From positions 34,267 through 98,266 of the forward strand of contig ML977037.1 of the NCBI GenBank assembly GCA_010015675.1: DNA of 64,000 nucleotides. Direction: 5' to 3'. The notes below the pieces were generated by a model. It was not told the origin of the DNA. It saw nothing but the letters and a program-made list of their open reading frames with translations, and did not search any database. This DNA is from Byssothecium circinans (lineage: Eukaryota; Ascomycota; Dothideomycetes; Pleosporales; Massarinaceae). Position 1 is the stretch's first letter, and each line of letters opens with the position of its first letter. Positions 8,593 through 16,005 of this stretch are shown here, in pieces. A program made the translations under genes and the position numbers.

Positions 8593-10215
8593 TTAACGCG
8601 TCCTCCGGAAAGCGTCCCTACCAATCCTTCCCACCAGCTCCCCAAAGAAGCTTCTTGTTTCCCAAATCGGCAGGAAGCAACTCACGAAAGTCGATCCAAA
8701 AACCCAGAGAAATGAAATGACTACCCAAGCTGTAAAGAAGCCCTTGCTGAATATATACTGGGAGAAGAACATCGGCATCGGTATGAGACAGTCCATAATG
8801 AAGGTTAAAACGAAAGAAGCTATGCAGGCAAGCTTGAAAGCGGAGCGGAGCTTAGAGGGCTCATTTTCAGCGCCGAACTCGATACGCAAAGCTTGCTCGG
8901 TTTCGGATGTGATAGCGGGAGTCGGCGTCAATGTAGGCTTAGGGCTTTCCGATGATGGCGCGCTTTTTCTTCCTCCATCGTCTTTGCCGTTGTTGCCTCT
9001 TCATTTGGTTTAACTACACCTTCTGCCATGGTACCCTGCGTGACTAGAATGGCATTGATGCTTCTAGTCACCTCCCAGTCAAACTTATCAGGTCTGATGA
9101 GCGACACAGCGACTGTGACAATCAGCACAGTCATGATCGCTGCGAGATTGCCAGCAAGCTTTAGGTACTCTTGGCCTGTAGTAGCTACAGTGACCACATC
9201 GTAGTACTGTTTCGTCACCGTGAGCCAGGCAATAATACCAGCAGCAAGGCCAACGACACATCCGGAGACGGCACCAAGTCGCGACTGCTTCATCCAAGTG
9301 ATGCTAAAAGCAGCTGAGAAAACAGCTCCACCAATGGATGGCCCCATGACCCTGCGTCATGTTATCATCAAGTTTCGGCTCTGCCAGTAGGTACTACTCA
9401 CAGGAATAGCCACCCTAGGTCGATGCTTGCTGCAATCCGAATACATGCGAAGACTGCCATCGTCAAGCCAAAAAACGCAGATCATGATATGGCTCACAAA
9501 GATGAGCTACTTGGGTGTGGCTTTGGGCTGAATGTAGGTCTTGTATACATCAAAGGTTAGTAGACTCGACACTGCGATCAGCTCGGCCGATGCACAGGAT
9601 GTCGCAGCCATAAACAACATGATTAGTAGCGCAACAGCGCCACTTTGTCCAAGAAGTGTGCTCGCCGCCTATGCTGCAGCAAGACCTGACTATATCTCTG
9701 TGGATGTTGGCTTGTTGGGATACGTTGGGAAGCGCAGGTTCTCTGCCAAAGCAGCGGCAGCTAGGCCCAACGTAGTCGGAAATAAAATTGGAATAGCGAA
9801 CCAGGCAAGCCCGCTCACGATGTATGCTCGTACCGCTGTTGTTGGGCGCGAAGCAATGGCACGTTGCCAGTAGGCTTGATCGAGGAAGACGGTACCCGAG
9901 CCTGAACAAAGCTGGATAACACCAAATATTGGACCAGTATTCGATTTAAGGTTGAGGTAGGAGCCATTATTGCTGCCATCGATTGGTCTTGTTGTCGCAG
10001 CTTGCTTCAAAAGGTCGTACATGGCTCCAGGTGAGCCTATAAGCGGACTTGTAGCGGAGGCGTGAAACATGAAGTATAGAATAATGATCATGATAATTAG
10101 CGTACGCAAACCACCGAGGATCACATATGTGCAAACACCTGAAGTTTTCAGTCTTATTGCTGGCTAATAGGCAGGCTCATTCACCAGTCGGAATCAAGAA
10201 GATGGCGGCGTAGAC

Positions 10216-10363
10216 CTAATAGGGGCTATAAAGTTAGCAAAACCCAACAAAGCTCACCTAAGAGTGTTTCAGTGTGTATTCTATTAGATGGGTTGTCTTG
10301 ATTAGGGAAGGCCAAAGTCTCAAAGATCAGTGAGCGGAATTTGTACTTGGGGGTTTTACTGAC
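10216..10363 (-). repeat. Introner-like intron, copy C (148 nt)
   Basis: This lies in the DUR3 pseudogene between TGMN and VYAAIFLIPTG, an exact phase-0 join. The donor is GTCAGT and the acceptor ATTAG. It shares with copies A and B an AGTACAAA-like block near the donor, AGACTTTGG followed by TTCCCT in the middle, and TTTGCTAACTT (branch site) about 20 nt from the 3' end. It is the most diverged of the three copies. Confidence 0.75.
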
Positions 10364-11039
10364 GTTCATCCCGGTAAGCGCTGTGAGAACCGCTGAGCCA
10401 CCTAGAAGTAGCTGGAGTTGCGGCCATCGCGAGTTGGATGGAGGGTCATGAGGGCCAAGTTTATAGCGGTTATTACTAATATCTACTTGCTTCACACGGG
10501 ATGAATCCTCTAGGCATGTGCTTTTCACATGCTCGCTTGGTTAAGGTCGCACCGTATAAATTCGAGCCTTACTGTTTCTCTCACCCATCTTCCTTTCTTC
10601 ATCCACGCCTCGCATACATGGCTTCCCCTTTCAATATGAAGAATCCTTCGGCTGTCCCCATCCCTGGGGCACCCAGAAGTAGTTGGCTGTCAACTAAGAT
10701 ATTCGTAACGAAGGTGAAAAGCGTGAAGACAAGGTGTGCACACATCCATATCGTGCGTAGATGATCTCGAGATAAGCATGACAGCGAGACGCGTTCTGTT
10801 TGACTTTACAAGCCAAAATGCTGAACATGAGAATCTGGACAGTAGCACCAGCGGCATACCAGAAAGGGCCCGGCAACACTATAGGTATACGCGACCTGTT
10901 ACTGATTAGGGTTGAGCTTCTCCACGAATCCTTGCTACTTACGGTTGAACTCTGGAGCATTGTCGCGGCCCATGTCCACGCCAAAACAATGCCGGATGCA
11001 ATGAGGCCTGGCTTGACTGATCGGGAAGCGGTGTTGGAC

Positions 11040-11170
11040 CTGGGGTGAAAAGTTAGCAAAGCTCCTCCAAGGGGATGTCGGTGCGCTTCGTGTGAATTGT
11101 TAGACAGGGAGATCCAAAGTCTTAGAGCCACGCAGTGTTCAGCGCACTTTGTACCCAGAAGATGACCAAC
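11040..11170 (-). repeat. Introner-like intron, copy B (131 nt)
   Basis: This lies in the DUR3 pseudogene just before SNTASRSVKPG. Aligned to copies A and C, the donor is GTTGGT, off consensus; the acceptor is CCCCAG. It shares TGGGTACAAAGTGC, GACATCCC and TTTGCTAACTT with copy A, and AGACTTTGG with copy C. It is about three times longer than ordinary introns in the window. Confidence 0.8.
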
Positions 11171-11363
11171 TCTTCAGACTGTTTGTCCGAATACATGGTG
11201 TATCGATTTTGCAGCTATGTTATGCCTATCATTAGGAAGGCGAAGAAAAAACCAATCCCAACGACGACGGCTACTCCCCATCAGTGTTGCTCACTAGGTC
11301 CCGGAATACGCACTCACCATATCCGACGCCGACTGGGAGCGTTGTAGTTGCAGAGACCGCCAT

Positions 11364-12249
11364 TCTAGATACGTACAACACTTGTAAAATGTCACAATTC
11401 CCGTCTTTCCATTGACGTCCTAAAACGCGCCGAACGTTAGAAAGAAAGATGGTTCGACATCATCCGCAGGGAGTGATAACGGCTGGGAAGACATTCCCCT
11501 GCCTCACGATCCATTCTGTATGGCTATGGAACCCTAGCGGGACATAAATCGACAATAATGCTCCTGAGGCGAGAGCATTTTGGGATTAGGAAGGTGATAA
11601 GAGTGAATAGCAGCCGTTGAGATGCATGGTCTTATCTCACCAATGATGTCAACACGCTAGAGCAAAAGTGCACTAGCCCGATATCTGATTTATGGATCGC
11701 AACATCAATCTTCTACGCATGTACTTCCAGTGTCTTCATCATGGAATGTCACCAATGACGGCACAAGCCTCCACTGTGGGGAAGAATCTTGGTTGTTGAG
11801 GGTCGAGTTGGCGACTTGTGATAGAAAGATTACTAATAGCGGAGTACTAGTTTCATACGGGAAATGCTACCACATCTGCAGTGAAGGGCTACTCAATCAA
11901 ACGGTGTAGAAGGGTAATATGGCTCGCGATACCGCACCGTACTCTTTTCTCCGCTGGTACACATGATGTTTTCATCTGGAGGCTATTTCTCAAACCTCGC
12001 CGCTGCCTCTTGTTGGCATTTCGCTCTTGCTGTAGCTATTCACGCAGTTCACTTAAAATAAACGCCTCTCCGCCTCATTTAGCTGCCCCCGGCACCTCAT
12101 TCGGGACACGCATTGGCTTCCTTCATTCAATCTTCCCCATTCATTCCCCAATACAACCATTTCACTCTCTCGGATCTACCTCACCAGCGCAAGGTAGTAC
12201 CGCAGAGCCACAGCAACCTGCACTCGTGGGCACCAAAACAGCCACCCAC
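11364..12249. other. Intergenic, divergent promoter of the DUR3 pseudogene and 2EXR gene B
   Basis: No recognisable product in any frame. An open frame in phase with 2EXR gene B extends upstream to 11881, but its first ATG is at 12250, so the extension is probably 5' leader. Confidence 0.55.
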
Positions 12250-13061
12250 ATGGAGCATTCGAGGGTTGAAGAGACGAAGAAGGACGCGCCCAACACTGTT
12301 CTGGACAGTGGTCTAGTCAGGATGGGCGAGCACAAGGTCACGACCCTTCCGAATGGCCTGGTCAGCTTGGAGAAAACACCGACACACCTTGTAGGAACGT
12401 AAGTCTTCGAAATCCTTCTAGCTTCCCAGGTTGAAGCTAATCCTGATTGCATACAAGTGTCAAGCGCAACAGCCTCGCGTCGCCCTTACTCCGCCTTCCG
12501 ACGGAGATCCGAGAGGTGATATGGCAATATGCGACAAGTCATCGTGTGTCAATCGCCCAGGTGGAAAATCAGAAAACGCTGAGAGTATATGAAGTACAAG
12601 GACATGGAAAGCCAGCGGAGCGAAACTACGAACCTAGATCGTGTTTCCGTCTACCAGAAGTCAGCCGGCAAATCTACTCCGAGACAGCAACCCTCGTCTA
12701 TTCCAACACCATCTTTGGTTTCGGACTGGGCCTCCACAAGAATTTCGAACTTGTGAGGACCTGGGCCGATGGCCTCGTACAAGCCCAGCGTAACGCCATC
12801 ACTGATGTGTCTGTCAACGCTATTGAGTTCTTCGTCATACGGAAAGCACTTTTTTCTCAGAAAGATCTGGTGCCGATGCGCAGAATTTTCCCGGCTCTTC
12901 AGCGTATCCACGTTTCCGACGAGCTCTTCGAAATAGGGATTAACGTCTTAGCGATGCATGATCCGCGGTATGTTACGTTGGAAGGGAAAGCTGAGCACTA
13001 CCGGAGGTGGATCAAAGGGATGTTTGGGGGGAGCGTTGAGCTCATCTTCACAAGAGGTTAA
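12250..13061 (+). CDS. 2EXR-domain-like fungal protein (paralogue B)
   Basis: Exons 12250-12398 and 12458-13061 (59-nt intron) encode 250 residues. The first in-frame ATG is used as the start. The splice restores SLASPLLRLPTEIREVIWQYA, the 2EXR/DUF7730 signature; FRLPEVSRQIYSETATLVY is the second block. Sequence and block order match the gene at 6578-7687 (compare LPAVCRKIYLETATLTY). The later FPALQRIHV also parallels YPCLKRIVV. The two genes are related and in opposite orientation around the DUR3 pseudogene. Function unknown. Confidence 0.8.
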
Positions 13062-13571
13062 GGCGCGCATGACAAGGTTGCGAGATTCTTGTGTTGAGGA
13101 TCAAACGGTGTGGAGGAAAGCAGCCGACTGGTATTCACGGTCGAGTATGGCGACAACCTACTAACCGACTGCAGCAAAAGATATCTTCAACTGCGTCACT
13201 GGCATGGGCCGGCTTCAACTTGAATGGTTTAATTCCTTGCCTAAGGTATGCTCTCCCCAAAGCATTGCGCATCAAAAACCCATGGAATGTATGATGGAAA
13301 AAGGGGGTCTGCAGGCGGGCGTCAATCAAGTCTTCTTAAACCAACAAGGATAATAATCTTGAATTACCTACATGTAATGAGTGATGGATGGATGCTACTT
13401 ATTTTTGTAAACAATTGTTTCTCTGTCGGCACCTAGGCGTCTATATGTACTTTGTATAGCCGATGTGTTCCCGCTTTCAAACCATGTATTAACCAACCAG
13501 GGGATATCTAGCCCATATCGAAAGCAAAGCCCATAAACACCATATATGCGTATGCATCACCTCACAGCCTT
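13062..13571. other. Intergenic, convergent 3' ends of 2EXR gene B and the lipase
   Basis: No gene seen. Several AT-rich runs at 13320-13560 are compatible with 3' untranslated and polyadenylation sequence. Confidence 0.55.
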
Positions 13572-16005
13572 CTACTCCTCCTTTCTAAGCTCGCCCTCTG
13601 AGTTCCGATCACCCTCTCCGCCTCCTCCGCTCACCTGGCCCCTTGCCATCTCACTCCACTCACCAGCTGTAGCATCTATACCTCTCTTCTGCACAACATG
13701 CCCATCCTCTCTCCTCTTGTAGAAATCCCCCTCCTCGATGCCCTCGCATCCTTTAGGTACGCGGCACACTTTCCTCGCTTCTTCGCCCGCTGTCTTCCAC
13801 AATACCTCACGGACCTCCTTGCCTACTTTTTCAATTGAATCCATGGCCCATATCACATCAAGATGCTCGTATCCTTCGATAATCTTGGAGTGAACGACGT
13901 CGACATACGGTTCGCGGTTTCTTTCAAATCGGCGGAGAAGACGTCTACCATCGACTAATGCATCGGAGCCGCAGACCCAGAGGGCAAATGGCGGCGTTTT
14001 AGGACCGTACCAAGCGTACTTTGAGCGATCCGAACCAGTTCGGCTCTTGCGAGCTTGTGTTGGCTCAGACCCCGGCTTGTCGTCATCGCTGCTATCAGAC
14101 GACGACTGTGCAGACTTTTGATCTTCTCGCTCATCTTCTTTATCCTCGATGGTCTTTTCTTCGCGTGTAGCAAGGATACATTTCTGCTTCGCGAAACACT
14201 CTCGCCCAAGCCACCATCGCATGCTCTCGGCACTGACATAGACCGGCGCAAATTGAAACATACGGTCCCTTAGATCGCGTTCCCAGCGCTCATCCGTCCA
14301 GTCGAAGAGGAAGGAGAAGACCTGGTATCCCATGGCGCCATAGAACTTTGGCGGGAGGACAGAGTGCATGATCATCATGAAGGGAATAAAGGCGTGGATG
14401 CCGAACATTGCGCGGAACATTCCTGGGCTGATCACGCGCATGAACTTGAGGTACATCTTGCCGATGAGCGGGCCTGCGTACGCAGCGGGAGCAAGCGCAC
14501 AAAAGACGCTGATCTTCTCGCCGATGTCGGGGCGTTGCTCTTTTGCGAGTGCTACCAGAGTCTGCGTTGTCCCTTGGCTGTGGGCGATGAGACCGAGCTT
14601 CTCAAAGCCAGTTTCAGAAAGTACGCGTGAAATGAGTGCTGGCAAGTCAAATAGACCCATTTGCCGTATGTTCCACGACCACATTCTGGGGTCGTTGTAC
14701 TTCAGCATGCTGTGTCGAGGTTTGAAACCGCAGCGATTGTTTCCTAGCCAGACGTCATAGCCTGACTTTACCAAAAAGAAGGCAAGACTATCATCGTCGT
14801 TCGTGCAGTAAGCGCCTGCAGATTGAAGAAGGCCATGGATCATGAGAATAGGATATTTCTTGTCTCCAGGTTTGTGTTGAGAAGCATCGCTGGAGTTGCT
14901 GTTGTCGGGAAATGTCTCTGGAGAGTGAGGTGTACGCTGTGAGTCCTTTGTCCGTCTGTACTCTCGCGGGTTGTAGATGTGCCACAGCTCTATTATGAAG
15001 CCATCTTCCGTCTGCACTTCGAAGACTTCGCAGTCGAGCCCAACGCGCCGAGCGTAGTAGCGTACATCGCAGGGAATCCTGTCCTAAGTAGAGGGTATGA
15101 AGTTAGCAAATCTCATCCAGAGGGATGTCAATATGCTCCGTCTCAACTCCTAGATAGGAAGATCTGAACTCTAAGAGCTACGTCAAGTGTTTAGTGCACT
15201 TTGTACCCAAGAGGTTACGTACGGGTCCGCCTTCGAGAGGGATGAACTCTTCTTTTTCGTCTCCTTCCTCGCCATCGTTGGTGCGTTTCTGAATTTCGTT
15301 CTCCTTCCCCTTCTGCCAAGATCTTTCTTCTATTCTTCGCGCTTTTCGTCTTCTCTCCTCCTCATGGAAGAATGGTCTCTTCTTATTTGGATCTCTGAAC
15401 GTGAGTCGCATCCATACTCGTCCAGCTAAGACTGGTATGCTTGTGAATAGCGCTCCTAGAATGATGACCAAAAGAAAGCATAGTGAGAGTATCGACGAGG
15501 ATAGTCGGAACAGCCAACATTGAACTCGTCGCATCAACGTCGGCGGTCCGTACATGGGTAGCGGCGGGAACAAAGGATTTGTTTTCGACGGCGGCTTTTG
15601 TTGTATTAACGGGGCGTCTGTCTCTCCTTCTCCTCCTGGTTTCTGAGGGGTATGAGCGCCGTGGACGGTTCCATCTTTAGATACCCGCGCTTTTATCTGC
15701 TTAGGTACACCTTCTGAGGGATGGGCTTCGTCGATGGCATCTCGAAGCTCATTGAGTTTCTTTGCTTCTTCTAAAGGTACTGCGGGCAATCTTTCCCCGT
15801 CAGCTGTTTGAATGACCGGGTCCTGGGTGGTAACAAATTTCGCCTCGATGGCCTGGGTTGAGCCTGTTGCGTCGCTCTCTTGGTTCGGAGCATATTGGCC
15901 TAGCCGTTCCGCTTGTTGTGCGAACTCGATCGCAGCCTTCGTCTTTGATTTTGTCTTCTCGTGCGCGTTCGCAACCTTCTCTTTGACCGTAGTGACGGTG
16001 GGCAT
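13572..16005 (-). CDS. Membrane-anchored alpha/beta-hydrolase lipase, steryl ester hydrolase (TGL1/YEH) type
   Basis: Exons 15223-16005 and 13572-15083 encode 764 residues. A 160-residue polar N-terminus is followed by a hydrophobic anchor at about 165-193. After the splice comes the lipase-associated region (VGLDCEVFEVQTEDGF), the oxyanion-type PILMIHGLLQSAGAY, and the nucleophile elbow AHSQGTT with Ser about 430. The probable acid is in SDALVDGRR and the His in GYEHLDVIW. This layout matches yeast Tgl1/Yeh1/Yeh2, which hydrolyse steryl esters at lipid droplets or membranes; that activity is inferred. A Ser/Asp/Glu-rich insert (about 14040-14170) lies before the acid residue. The single intron (139 nt) is an introner-like element. 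Confidence 0.88.
15084..15222 (-). repeat. Introner-like intron, copy A (139 nt), in the lipase gene
   Basis: This intron interrupts the intact lipase gene in phase 0 between EGGP and DRIPCDV. The donor is GTACGT, the acceptor CTTAG and the branch site TTTGCTAACTT. It shares TGGGTACAAAGTGC near the donor and GACATCCC near the branch site with copy B. The same block order occurs in copy C. Most other introns here are 44-60 nt and share none of these blocks. Confidence 0.85.

Follow-up and report, generated by a model that had tools for sequence, protein, structure and literature searches.

Three long introns of Byssothecium circinans as probable members of a dispersed family of introner-like elements

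Three long introns, A, B and C, lie on the minus strand of a 64,000-nucleotide stretch of the Byssothecium circinans genome (assembly GCA_010015675.1, contig ML977037.1, positions 34,267 to 98,266; the 64-kb window in the following), and are very probably old members of a dispersed family of introner-like elements in which whole introns were copied into unrelated genes. We give this reading a probability of about 0.87. It is supported by the many copies in the genome, their sharp boundaries, the flanks that they do not share, the protein domains that their removal restores in most of the products tested, their absence from the paralogues tested and their decay. The identification of the family is independent of the mechanism by which its members were inserted. 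Intron A is found in a lipase gene, and B and C belong to a degraded gene related to the urea transporter gene DUR3 (Table 1).

Three related introns and their copies in the genome

The initial annotation described A, B and C as homologous introns with defined donors, and all three were recovered at the positions claimed, on the minus strand, with those donors and with the acceptors TTAG, CCAG and TTAG, respectively. The branch-site block that it reported as common to them, TTTGCTAACTT, is present in A, B and C and in just one of 39 control short introns, which were picked by script from family loci and from the window. The CTAAC within this region agrees with the fungal branch-site consensus. 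Mutual homology had been claimed for all three and stands firmly for two of the pairs. In local alignment A and B scored 91, far above the maximum of 28 reached in 2000 shuffles, and A and C scored 32 against a shuffle maximum of 27 (2000 shuffles), which is clear, while B and C taken alone are weakly similar, their score of 25 being equalled by 3 of 2000 shuffles. Used as a DNA query against its own genome, A retrieves B at 76% identity over 110 nt (E = 6.9e-15). C retrieves neither A nor B in this way and is tied to them through other copies and through a profile of 27 sequences. Since this profile includes A, B and C, their own profile matches are partly so by construction, as for A with E = 9.7e-36. 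No fourth family place was found in the window at a profile E of 0.01. The contrast with ordinary short introns drawn in the initial annotation is right in kind, A, B and C having 131-148 nt against a mean of 53 nt for the 39 short introns, a control set that was limited by script to lengths of about 43-77 nt and gives no independent estimate of length.

Searches of the genome assembly, which has 48.4 Mb in 109 contigs and contains the window at C61:34267-98266, revealed further copies, amounting to 80 distinct places at a profile E of at most 1e-3. These places result from the merging of 111 fetched loci, and 58 of them cover at least 100 model positions. Three further places (C14, C28 and C45) came from later patterns, the first profile omitted three of 30 seed copies (L008, L033 and L035), and all family counts are lower bounds. 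In the own-genome DNA searches A, B and C gave 8, 23 and 5 matches, respectively, the queries themselves counted. The family comprises two subfamilies, type I with A and B and type II with C. The type I consensus, derived from a 27-copy alignment, matched 42 places with identities reaching 91%; the search scored 40 of the 63 first-look candidates. C and two relatives were the three sources of the type II consensus, which was then adjusted by eye; it matched 22 places, nine of which reach well past the shared 3′ end, and is 78% identical to C. A 25-nt pattern of the 3′ end had 52 matches and its reversed control none, and a 20-nt pattern of the 5′ end had 39 places and its reversed control one; C14, C28 and C45 were read among the places newly found with the latter, and nine others were not.

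These results bear on the possibility that A, B and C are ordinary ancient introns, alike through the splice motifs of long fungal introns. The shared block does include the branch site, 7 of the 39 short introns contain GCTAAC and the direct similarity of C and B is weak, as would be expected on that view. The similarity nevertheless extends along the whole intron, with E-values down to 2e-48 for the type I consensus and of 1e-20 or better already for the single-copy queries A and B reaching other copies, the reversed 3′ pattern has no match, and the tested introns are absent from paralogues, so we regard ancient origin as very improbable.

The boundary tables omit the 22 of the 80 places that cover fewer than 100 model positions. 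Most of these match in the 3′ part only and look like older members. Among the shorter places, L086, L087, L090, L092-L094, L096-L100, L102 and L105-L108 are intron-like and match the profile on its last 30-71 positions only, around GGATGAGCTTTGCTRACTTTGTACC. Such 3′-only matches may be older subfamilies, or the 3′ end may have spread by itself. An identical 20-mer, GAAAACTCCTAGGAACTAAG, was also observed at G000:C4:235028, C42:31708 and C75:13285, with three mismatches from the family 5′ end; the trio is perhaps another repeat with a similar end.

Gain, splicing and decay of the copies

The site of B has no intron in the C19 paralogue of DUR3 (E = 3e-13) or in a similar place on C37 (E = 0.058), and the site of C has none in the C37 place or in the C19 gene (E = 0.008 each), the latter gene having a short intron about five codons upstream of the position of C. 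An amidase gene on C43 has a family intron that is missing from 13 of 14 other amidase places, as judged from codons 69/70 being covered by one match too short to contain such an intron. For the subtilase gene the own-genome search for paralogues matched only the gene itself. As far as can be seen from the paralogues, the introns appear to have been gained. An amidase paralogue on C5 has a 3′-end family match of its own (L094, G000:C5:210137-210194) about 46 bases past the aligned stretch; with family introns at different positions, the C5 and C43 amidases are possible independent gains in one gene family.

Spliced at A, the lipase gene encodes 764 amino acids that are 100% identical over the full length to a predicted Byssothecium circinans protein, and the junction between PLEGGP and DRIPCD shows no gap in 18 aligned proteins, its own included, taken from 120 listed homologues. 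Spliced products were compared with Pfam for 17 of 32 candidates, the lipase included and several of them trimmed. A domain match spans the junction in 12 of the 17. Two products, a TPR protein and the lipase, whose domain begins immediately downstream of the junction, have a match that does not cross it, and three have no match. The domains across the junction are subtilase, GH20 domain 2, amidase, FMO-like, GH71, three MFS transporters, short-chain dehydrogenase, AAA_12, NPHP3_N and terpene synthase, the crossing being thin for the FMO-like match, which extends about five residues past the junction, and for one MFS match, which begins seven residues before it. The host genes of the family thus differ. 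Phases 0, 1 and 2 were counted 13, 9 and 10 times in the 32 candidates, with frames chosen by the longest open flanks. Both flanks were open for at least 90 nt in 32 of the 58 near-full copies in the sense direction and in 19 in the antisense direction.

Some of this evidence has to be set against the reading of the copies as introns that were gained. The open-frame test is weak in that 400 of 1046 random GT..AG cuts also pass it, the assignment of gain over loss draws on paralogues that are in part weakly aligned (C37 and the C site, E = 0.058 to 0.008), and the copies are predicted spliceosomal introns, their splicing being read from frames, domains and a predicted protein.

The initial annotation proposed one expanding intron family. 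The family stands, and its expansion appears to lie in the past. The best type I pair is 92% identical (0.919), and the 43 type I copies, chosen at an identity of at least 77%, average 83% to their consensus with a maximum of 92%. Transitions make up 640 of the 918 differences in these copies. Near-identical copies that would signal current activity were not found among type I, and on this evidence the family is not active now.

A shared hairpin on RNA folding, which the initial annotation suggested as a check, was obtained for the type I consensus and not for the three introns themselves. Folding of the consensus gave -44.8 kcal/mol (z = -4.57, reached by 0 of 200 shuffles). Its two ends each have, within 32 nt, one arm of a perfect 10-nt inverted repeat, a feature seen in 71 of 200000 single-base shuffles. 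The arms sit 15 and 10 nt from the ends of the element and are thus near-terminal. The resident copies speak against a structure that is still in use. A, B and C are no more stably folded than their own shuffles (z = -1.06, -0.34 and -0.41), a z of -2 or lower was reached by just 4 of the 43 type I copies (single-base shuffles), and across these 43 copies the near-terminal stem has 335 of 430 cells paired against 338.3 with the arms shuffled, with no covariation. The mean folding energy of the copies is -30.7, compared with -33.1 for the consensus after 20% random change, RNAalifold gave no pairs on the mixed 27-row alignment, and Rfam had no match for the best copy. Because the stem is kept no better than chance, the structure is that of the ancestor and is not visibly maintained in the residents. 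We infer that the founding element was a structured RNA or a hairpin DNA closed by the near-terminal 10-bp stem, and its structure may have served copying. The ancestral stem might also have brought the donor near the branch site, so that the spliceosome would in effect meet a short intron, an idea to which we give somewhat less than even odds. The difference between a structured ancestor and mostly unstructured copies helps to separate the needs of moving from the needs of splicing.

The copied unit and its landing sites

The extent of the copied segment was assessed from the agreement of single bases among the nearest three relatives of each of 55 copies, compared with 2000 shuffles. The third base of the donor follows the kinship of the elements (88 matches, 51.5 expected, 0/2000), and so does the fourth (96, 65.0 expected, 1/2000); the third downstream exon base ignores it (55, 53.7 expected). 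Within type I alone the figures were 75 against 52.8 for the third donor base (2/2000) and 77 against 48.0 for the fourth (0/2000), and no kinship signal was found in the three upstream and four downstream exon bases. For 28 GT-donor copies with both ends anchored the signal of the third base holds (6/2000) and that of the fourth is weaker (264/2000). The intron is the moving unit, because related copies do not have flanking exon bases in common, and since the donor bases are inherited the copied segment spans at least the stretch from the third donor base to the acceptor.

The same observations make it hardly credible that the copies stem from segmental or gene duplication and not from the mobility of introns. 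A and B do lie 4 kb apart, and B and C lie within one gene, as duplication would have it. Related copies are nevertheless without common flanking exon bases, the host genes differ, and the A-B identity of 0.74 ranks 380 of 903 type I pairs, so that these neighbours are not closest kin and are no closer than many dispersed pairs.

Landing sites were read in a clean set of 34 copies, 24 of the 58 near-full copies being left out. The exon resumes with GT in 21 of the 34, compared with 4 of the 39 short introns. The first three exon bases equal those of the copy's own donor in 14 of 34 (4.7 expected, 0/10000 shuffles), and the third base does so in 21 of 34 (11.2 expected, 1/10000, and 7/20000 in a repeat). 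This third-base match was also found in all near-full copies (27 of 58, 17.4 expected, 21/5000), in the 28 anchored GT-donor copies (18, 9.9 expected, 24/20000) and in held-out partial copies (11 of 19, 6.9 expected, 607/20000), from which three of the 22 places were skipped by name and whose donors, chosen by script, may be wrong in some. The corresponding figures for the control short introns were 9 of 39 and 6.6 expected (481/3000). The GT-donor set and the set with non-GT flanks exclude the C17 pair and include three additional copies that were read by hand. The nominal match figures overstate the case, because several registers and positions were tried.

A mechanism may be proposed from these sites. 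Introns of about 130-148 nt, with their own donor, branch site and acceptor, were very probably copied whole into new positions. The insertion would be seamless, favouring sites that start with GT and whose third base equals that of the element's own donor, and would take place while a broken chromosome is repaired, the terminal GTN of the element pairing with the target. Among the mechanisms considered we favour this insertion of the whole intron at a matching GTN site in the course of break repair, at somewhat less than even odds. We are a little more hesitant about the specific claim that the introner selects exon sites starting with its own donor GTN and leaves a 3-nt direct repeat, one copy of which becomes the new 5′ splice site. 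If true, the choice of GTN sites would join fungal introners to insertion by break repair or staggered cuts, with the splice site as the annealing point, and the near-terminal hairpin would be needed for copying and not for later splicing.

A number of findings go against such a choice of sites. All three bases match in only 4 of 19 held-out partial copies (2.8 expected, 5444/20000). No excess of third-base matches was seen in worn-ended copies (5 of 19, 4.7 expected; 5 of 24 were skipped for having no AG close to the aligned end) or in copies with a non-GT left flank (9 of 20, 7.8 expected), and matches at the fourth base are at chance level in the clean copies (11 of 34, 12.0 expected). In 15 of the 28 anchored GT-donor copies the exon base and the donor base of the clade are the same, and 14 of these have a donor that agrees with both. 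The remaining 13 copies yield no winner, the donor following the clade in four, the exon in four and neither in five. The aspartate of the GAC that follows intron A is invariant in the 18 aligned proteins and offers no GT site. Intron A entered before this invariant codon and therefore carried its own GT.

Copies also abut each other within a few bases, in two tandem pairs (C46 and C48), one head-to-head pair (C5) and one tail-to-tail pair (C17). The back-to-back tandem introns could act as one compound intron. A recent tandem duplication was considered as the origin of the C48 pair and is unsupported, the identity of its members being 0.716 (rank 551 of 903). Reverse splicing into a message does not readily account for copies that meet end to end in opposite orientations, which break repair or DNA insertion would explain more easily.

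In reverse splicing the spliceosome would reinsert excised intron RNA into a transcript or into single-stranded DNA, which is then copied to DNA. The coincidence of the moving unit with the intron, the inheritance of its own donor and the apparently seamless insertion are all in its favour, and fungal introners have been so interpreted (PMC9860276, in the part cited here). It would not, however, lead one to expect exons that match the donor at the third base, or copies that abut in opposite orientations, and it has no role for the inverted repeat of the ancestor; we consider it rather unlikely. Still less probable in our view is an element resembling a miniature inverted-repeat transposable element (MITE), in which a transposase moves the unit AGTAAAC...CTTAG, a 3-bp GTN target duplication supplies the donor GT and splicing restores the message. 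This would explain the equal bases on both sides of 14 of the 34 clean copies, the near-terminal inverted repeat of the consensus, the copies abutting in opposite orientations and the four copies in which the donor base follows the exon and not the clade. Unlike a target-derived donor, however, the donor bases here are inherited within subfamilies, the fourth less clearly in the anchored set, well-preserved copies have mismatched flanks (C63: GTG/GGA; C26: CCG/GAG), copies not starting with GT show no excess of matches, and a longer element bearing these ends was not identified, nine of the new places of the 5′ pattern being unread.

A strict 3-bp target-site duplication was first read from the 14 of 34 GTN matches and was set aside as the leading interpretation, as the donor bases are inherited within subfamilies; with an inherited donor, plain target-site duplication does not explain the third-base match. 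Of the registers compared for duplication lengths from 2 to 8, a single one was conspicuous, that with four bases ahead of GTAAAC (79 of 136, 65.3 expected, 3/10000). The way in which the target sites depart from randomness differs between the models of reverse splicing, transposition and break repair.

The positions of the features are collected in Table 1. The tblastn pieces that make up the DUR3-like gene of the window are 37-48% identical to the C19 paralogue and shift frame, and the largest piece has in-frame stops. The C19 paralogue itself keeps an open frame of 517 amino acids, whereas the window copy is broken into pieces.

Table 1. Introns A, B and C with their host genes (window positions) and pairs of abutting family copies (genome positions)
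Feature	Position	Strand	Description and basis
Intron A, 139 nt	15084..15222	-	Type I, phase 0; in lipase gene (Abhydro_lipase/Abhydrolase_1); donor GTACGT, acceptor TTAG, exon resumes GAC
Intron A, near-terminal inverted repeat, 5′ arm	15198..15207	-	GGTACAAAGT; sequence
Intron A, near-terminal inverted repeat, 3′ arm	15094..15103	-	Consensus ACTTTGTACC, two differences in A; sequence and consensus structure; overlaps branch-site region
Intron A, predicted branch site CTAAC	15102..15106	-	Sequence; block common to A, B and C
Intron B, 131 nt	11040..11170	-	Type I, phase 2 by reading; 5′ side of degraded DUR3-like gene; donor GTTGGT, acceptor CCAG
Intron C, 148 nt	10216..10363	-	Type II; in degraded DUR3-like gene; donor GTCAGT, acceptor TTAG, exon resumes GTC
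Lipase gene, first coding exon	15223..16005	-	261 codons, start codon to donor of A; reading frame, homologue match
Lipase gene, second coding exon	13572..15083	-	503 codons and stop; reading frame, homologue match
Degraded DUR3-like urea transporter gene	8596..11035	-	Holds C, B adjoins its 5′ end; tblastn pieces
Head-to-head pair L088	G000:C5:1486834-1487098		Few bases absent at join
Tail-to-tail pair L016	G000:C17:718241-718524		Few bases absent at join
Tandem pair L025	G000:C48:23264-23511		No exon between members
Tandem pair L111	G000:C46:9571-9802		No exon between members

Comparison with known introners and stwintrons

Introner-like elements, which multiply as spliceosomal introns, were reportedly found in Dothideomycetes by van der Burgt et al. 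in 2012, and introners are said to have been described by Huff et al. in 2016 as non-autonomous DNA transposons. The origin of new spliceosomal introns is an open question, for which about 80 decayed copies with sharp boundaries provide a test bed. Our literature search found no report of an introner-like family in Massarinaceae, and the present one is a newly described introner-like element family in Massarinaceae. Byssothecium is absent from the main text of PMC9860276, whose supplementary tables may list the family.

Like the introner-like elements of Dothideomycetes (Collemare et al. 2015, PMC4457414), the copies described here are longer than regular introns, are located in unrelated genes, form families and decayed after insertion. 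They differ in their host, which belongs to Massarinaceae (Pleosporales), and in number, about 80 places having been found and not hundreds. The best type I pair is 92% identical here, compared with 98-99% in Zymoseptoria and Fulvia (PMC4457414). A less identical, possibly inactive set of introner-like elements was described in D. septosporum (PMC4457414), and the missing near-identical copies therefore bear on activity and not on kind. The cited part of PMC8469720 credits van der Burgt et al. with having reported a stable predicted structure and preferential insertion at AG/GY sites. Here the preference is for GT without a preceding AG, together with the third-base match to the element's own donor, in contrast to the AG/GY sites of the Dothideomycetes elements (PMC8469720).

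The perfect 10-nt inverted repeat near both ends, which in the RNA would place the donor close to the acceptor, resembles the NTIRE-10 of the Xylariales stwintrons (PMC12403724). Unlike those stwintrons, each copy here reads as one canonical intron, although no search was aimed at nested introns. For the Xylariales stwintrons the cited part of PMC12403724 gives no target duplication and a frequency of GU following the intron that is close to the 1 in 16 expected at random, which contrasts with the GT preference of the clean copies described here. The symmetrical stwintrons of Hypoxylon and their cropped sister introns are similar in that divergent copies lose symmetry, insertion into coding sequence is seamless and break repair is proposed (PMC8469720). 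They are different in having inverted repeats of 45-55 nt and, according to the same cited part, no flanking short duplications.

With the transposon introners (PMC9860276) the family has in common that one splice site has sequence in common with the flanking exon and that the intron is seamless. In contrast to them the donor is inherited with the element here, so that strict co-option of a splice site fails. According to the cited part of Gozashti et al. 2022 (PMC9860276), ascomycete introner families have neither terminal inverted repeats (TIRs) nor target-site duplications (TSDs). Fungal introners are described without target duplication in the papers cited here. The landing sites of the Byssothecium family may hint at how fungal introns arise.

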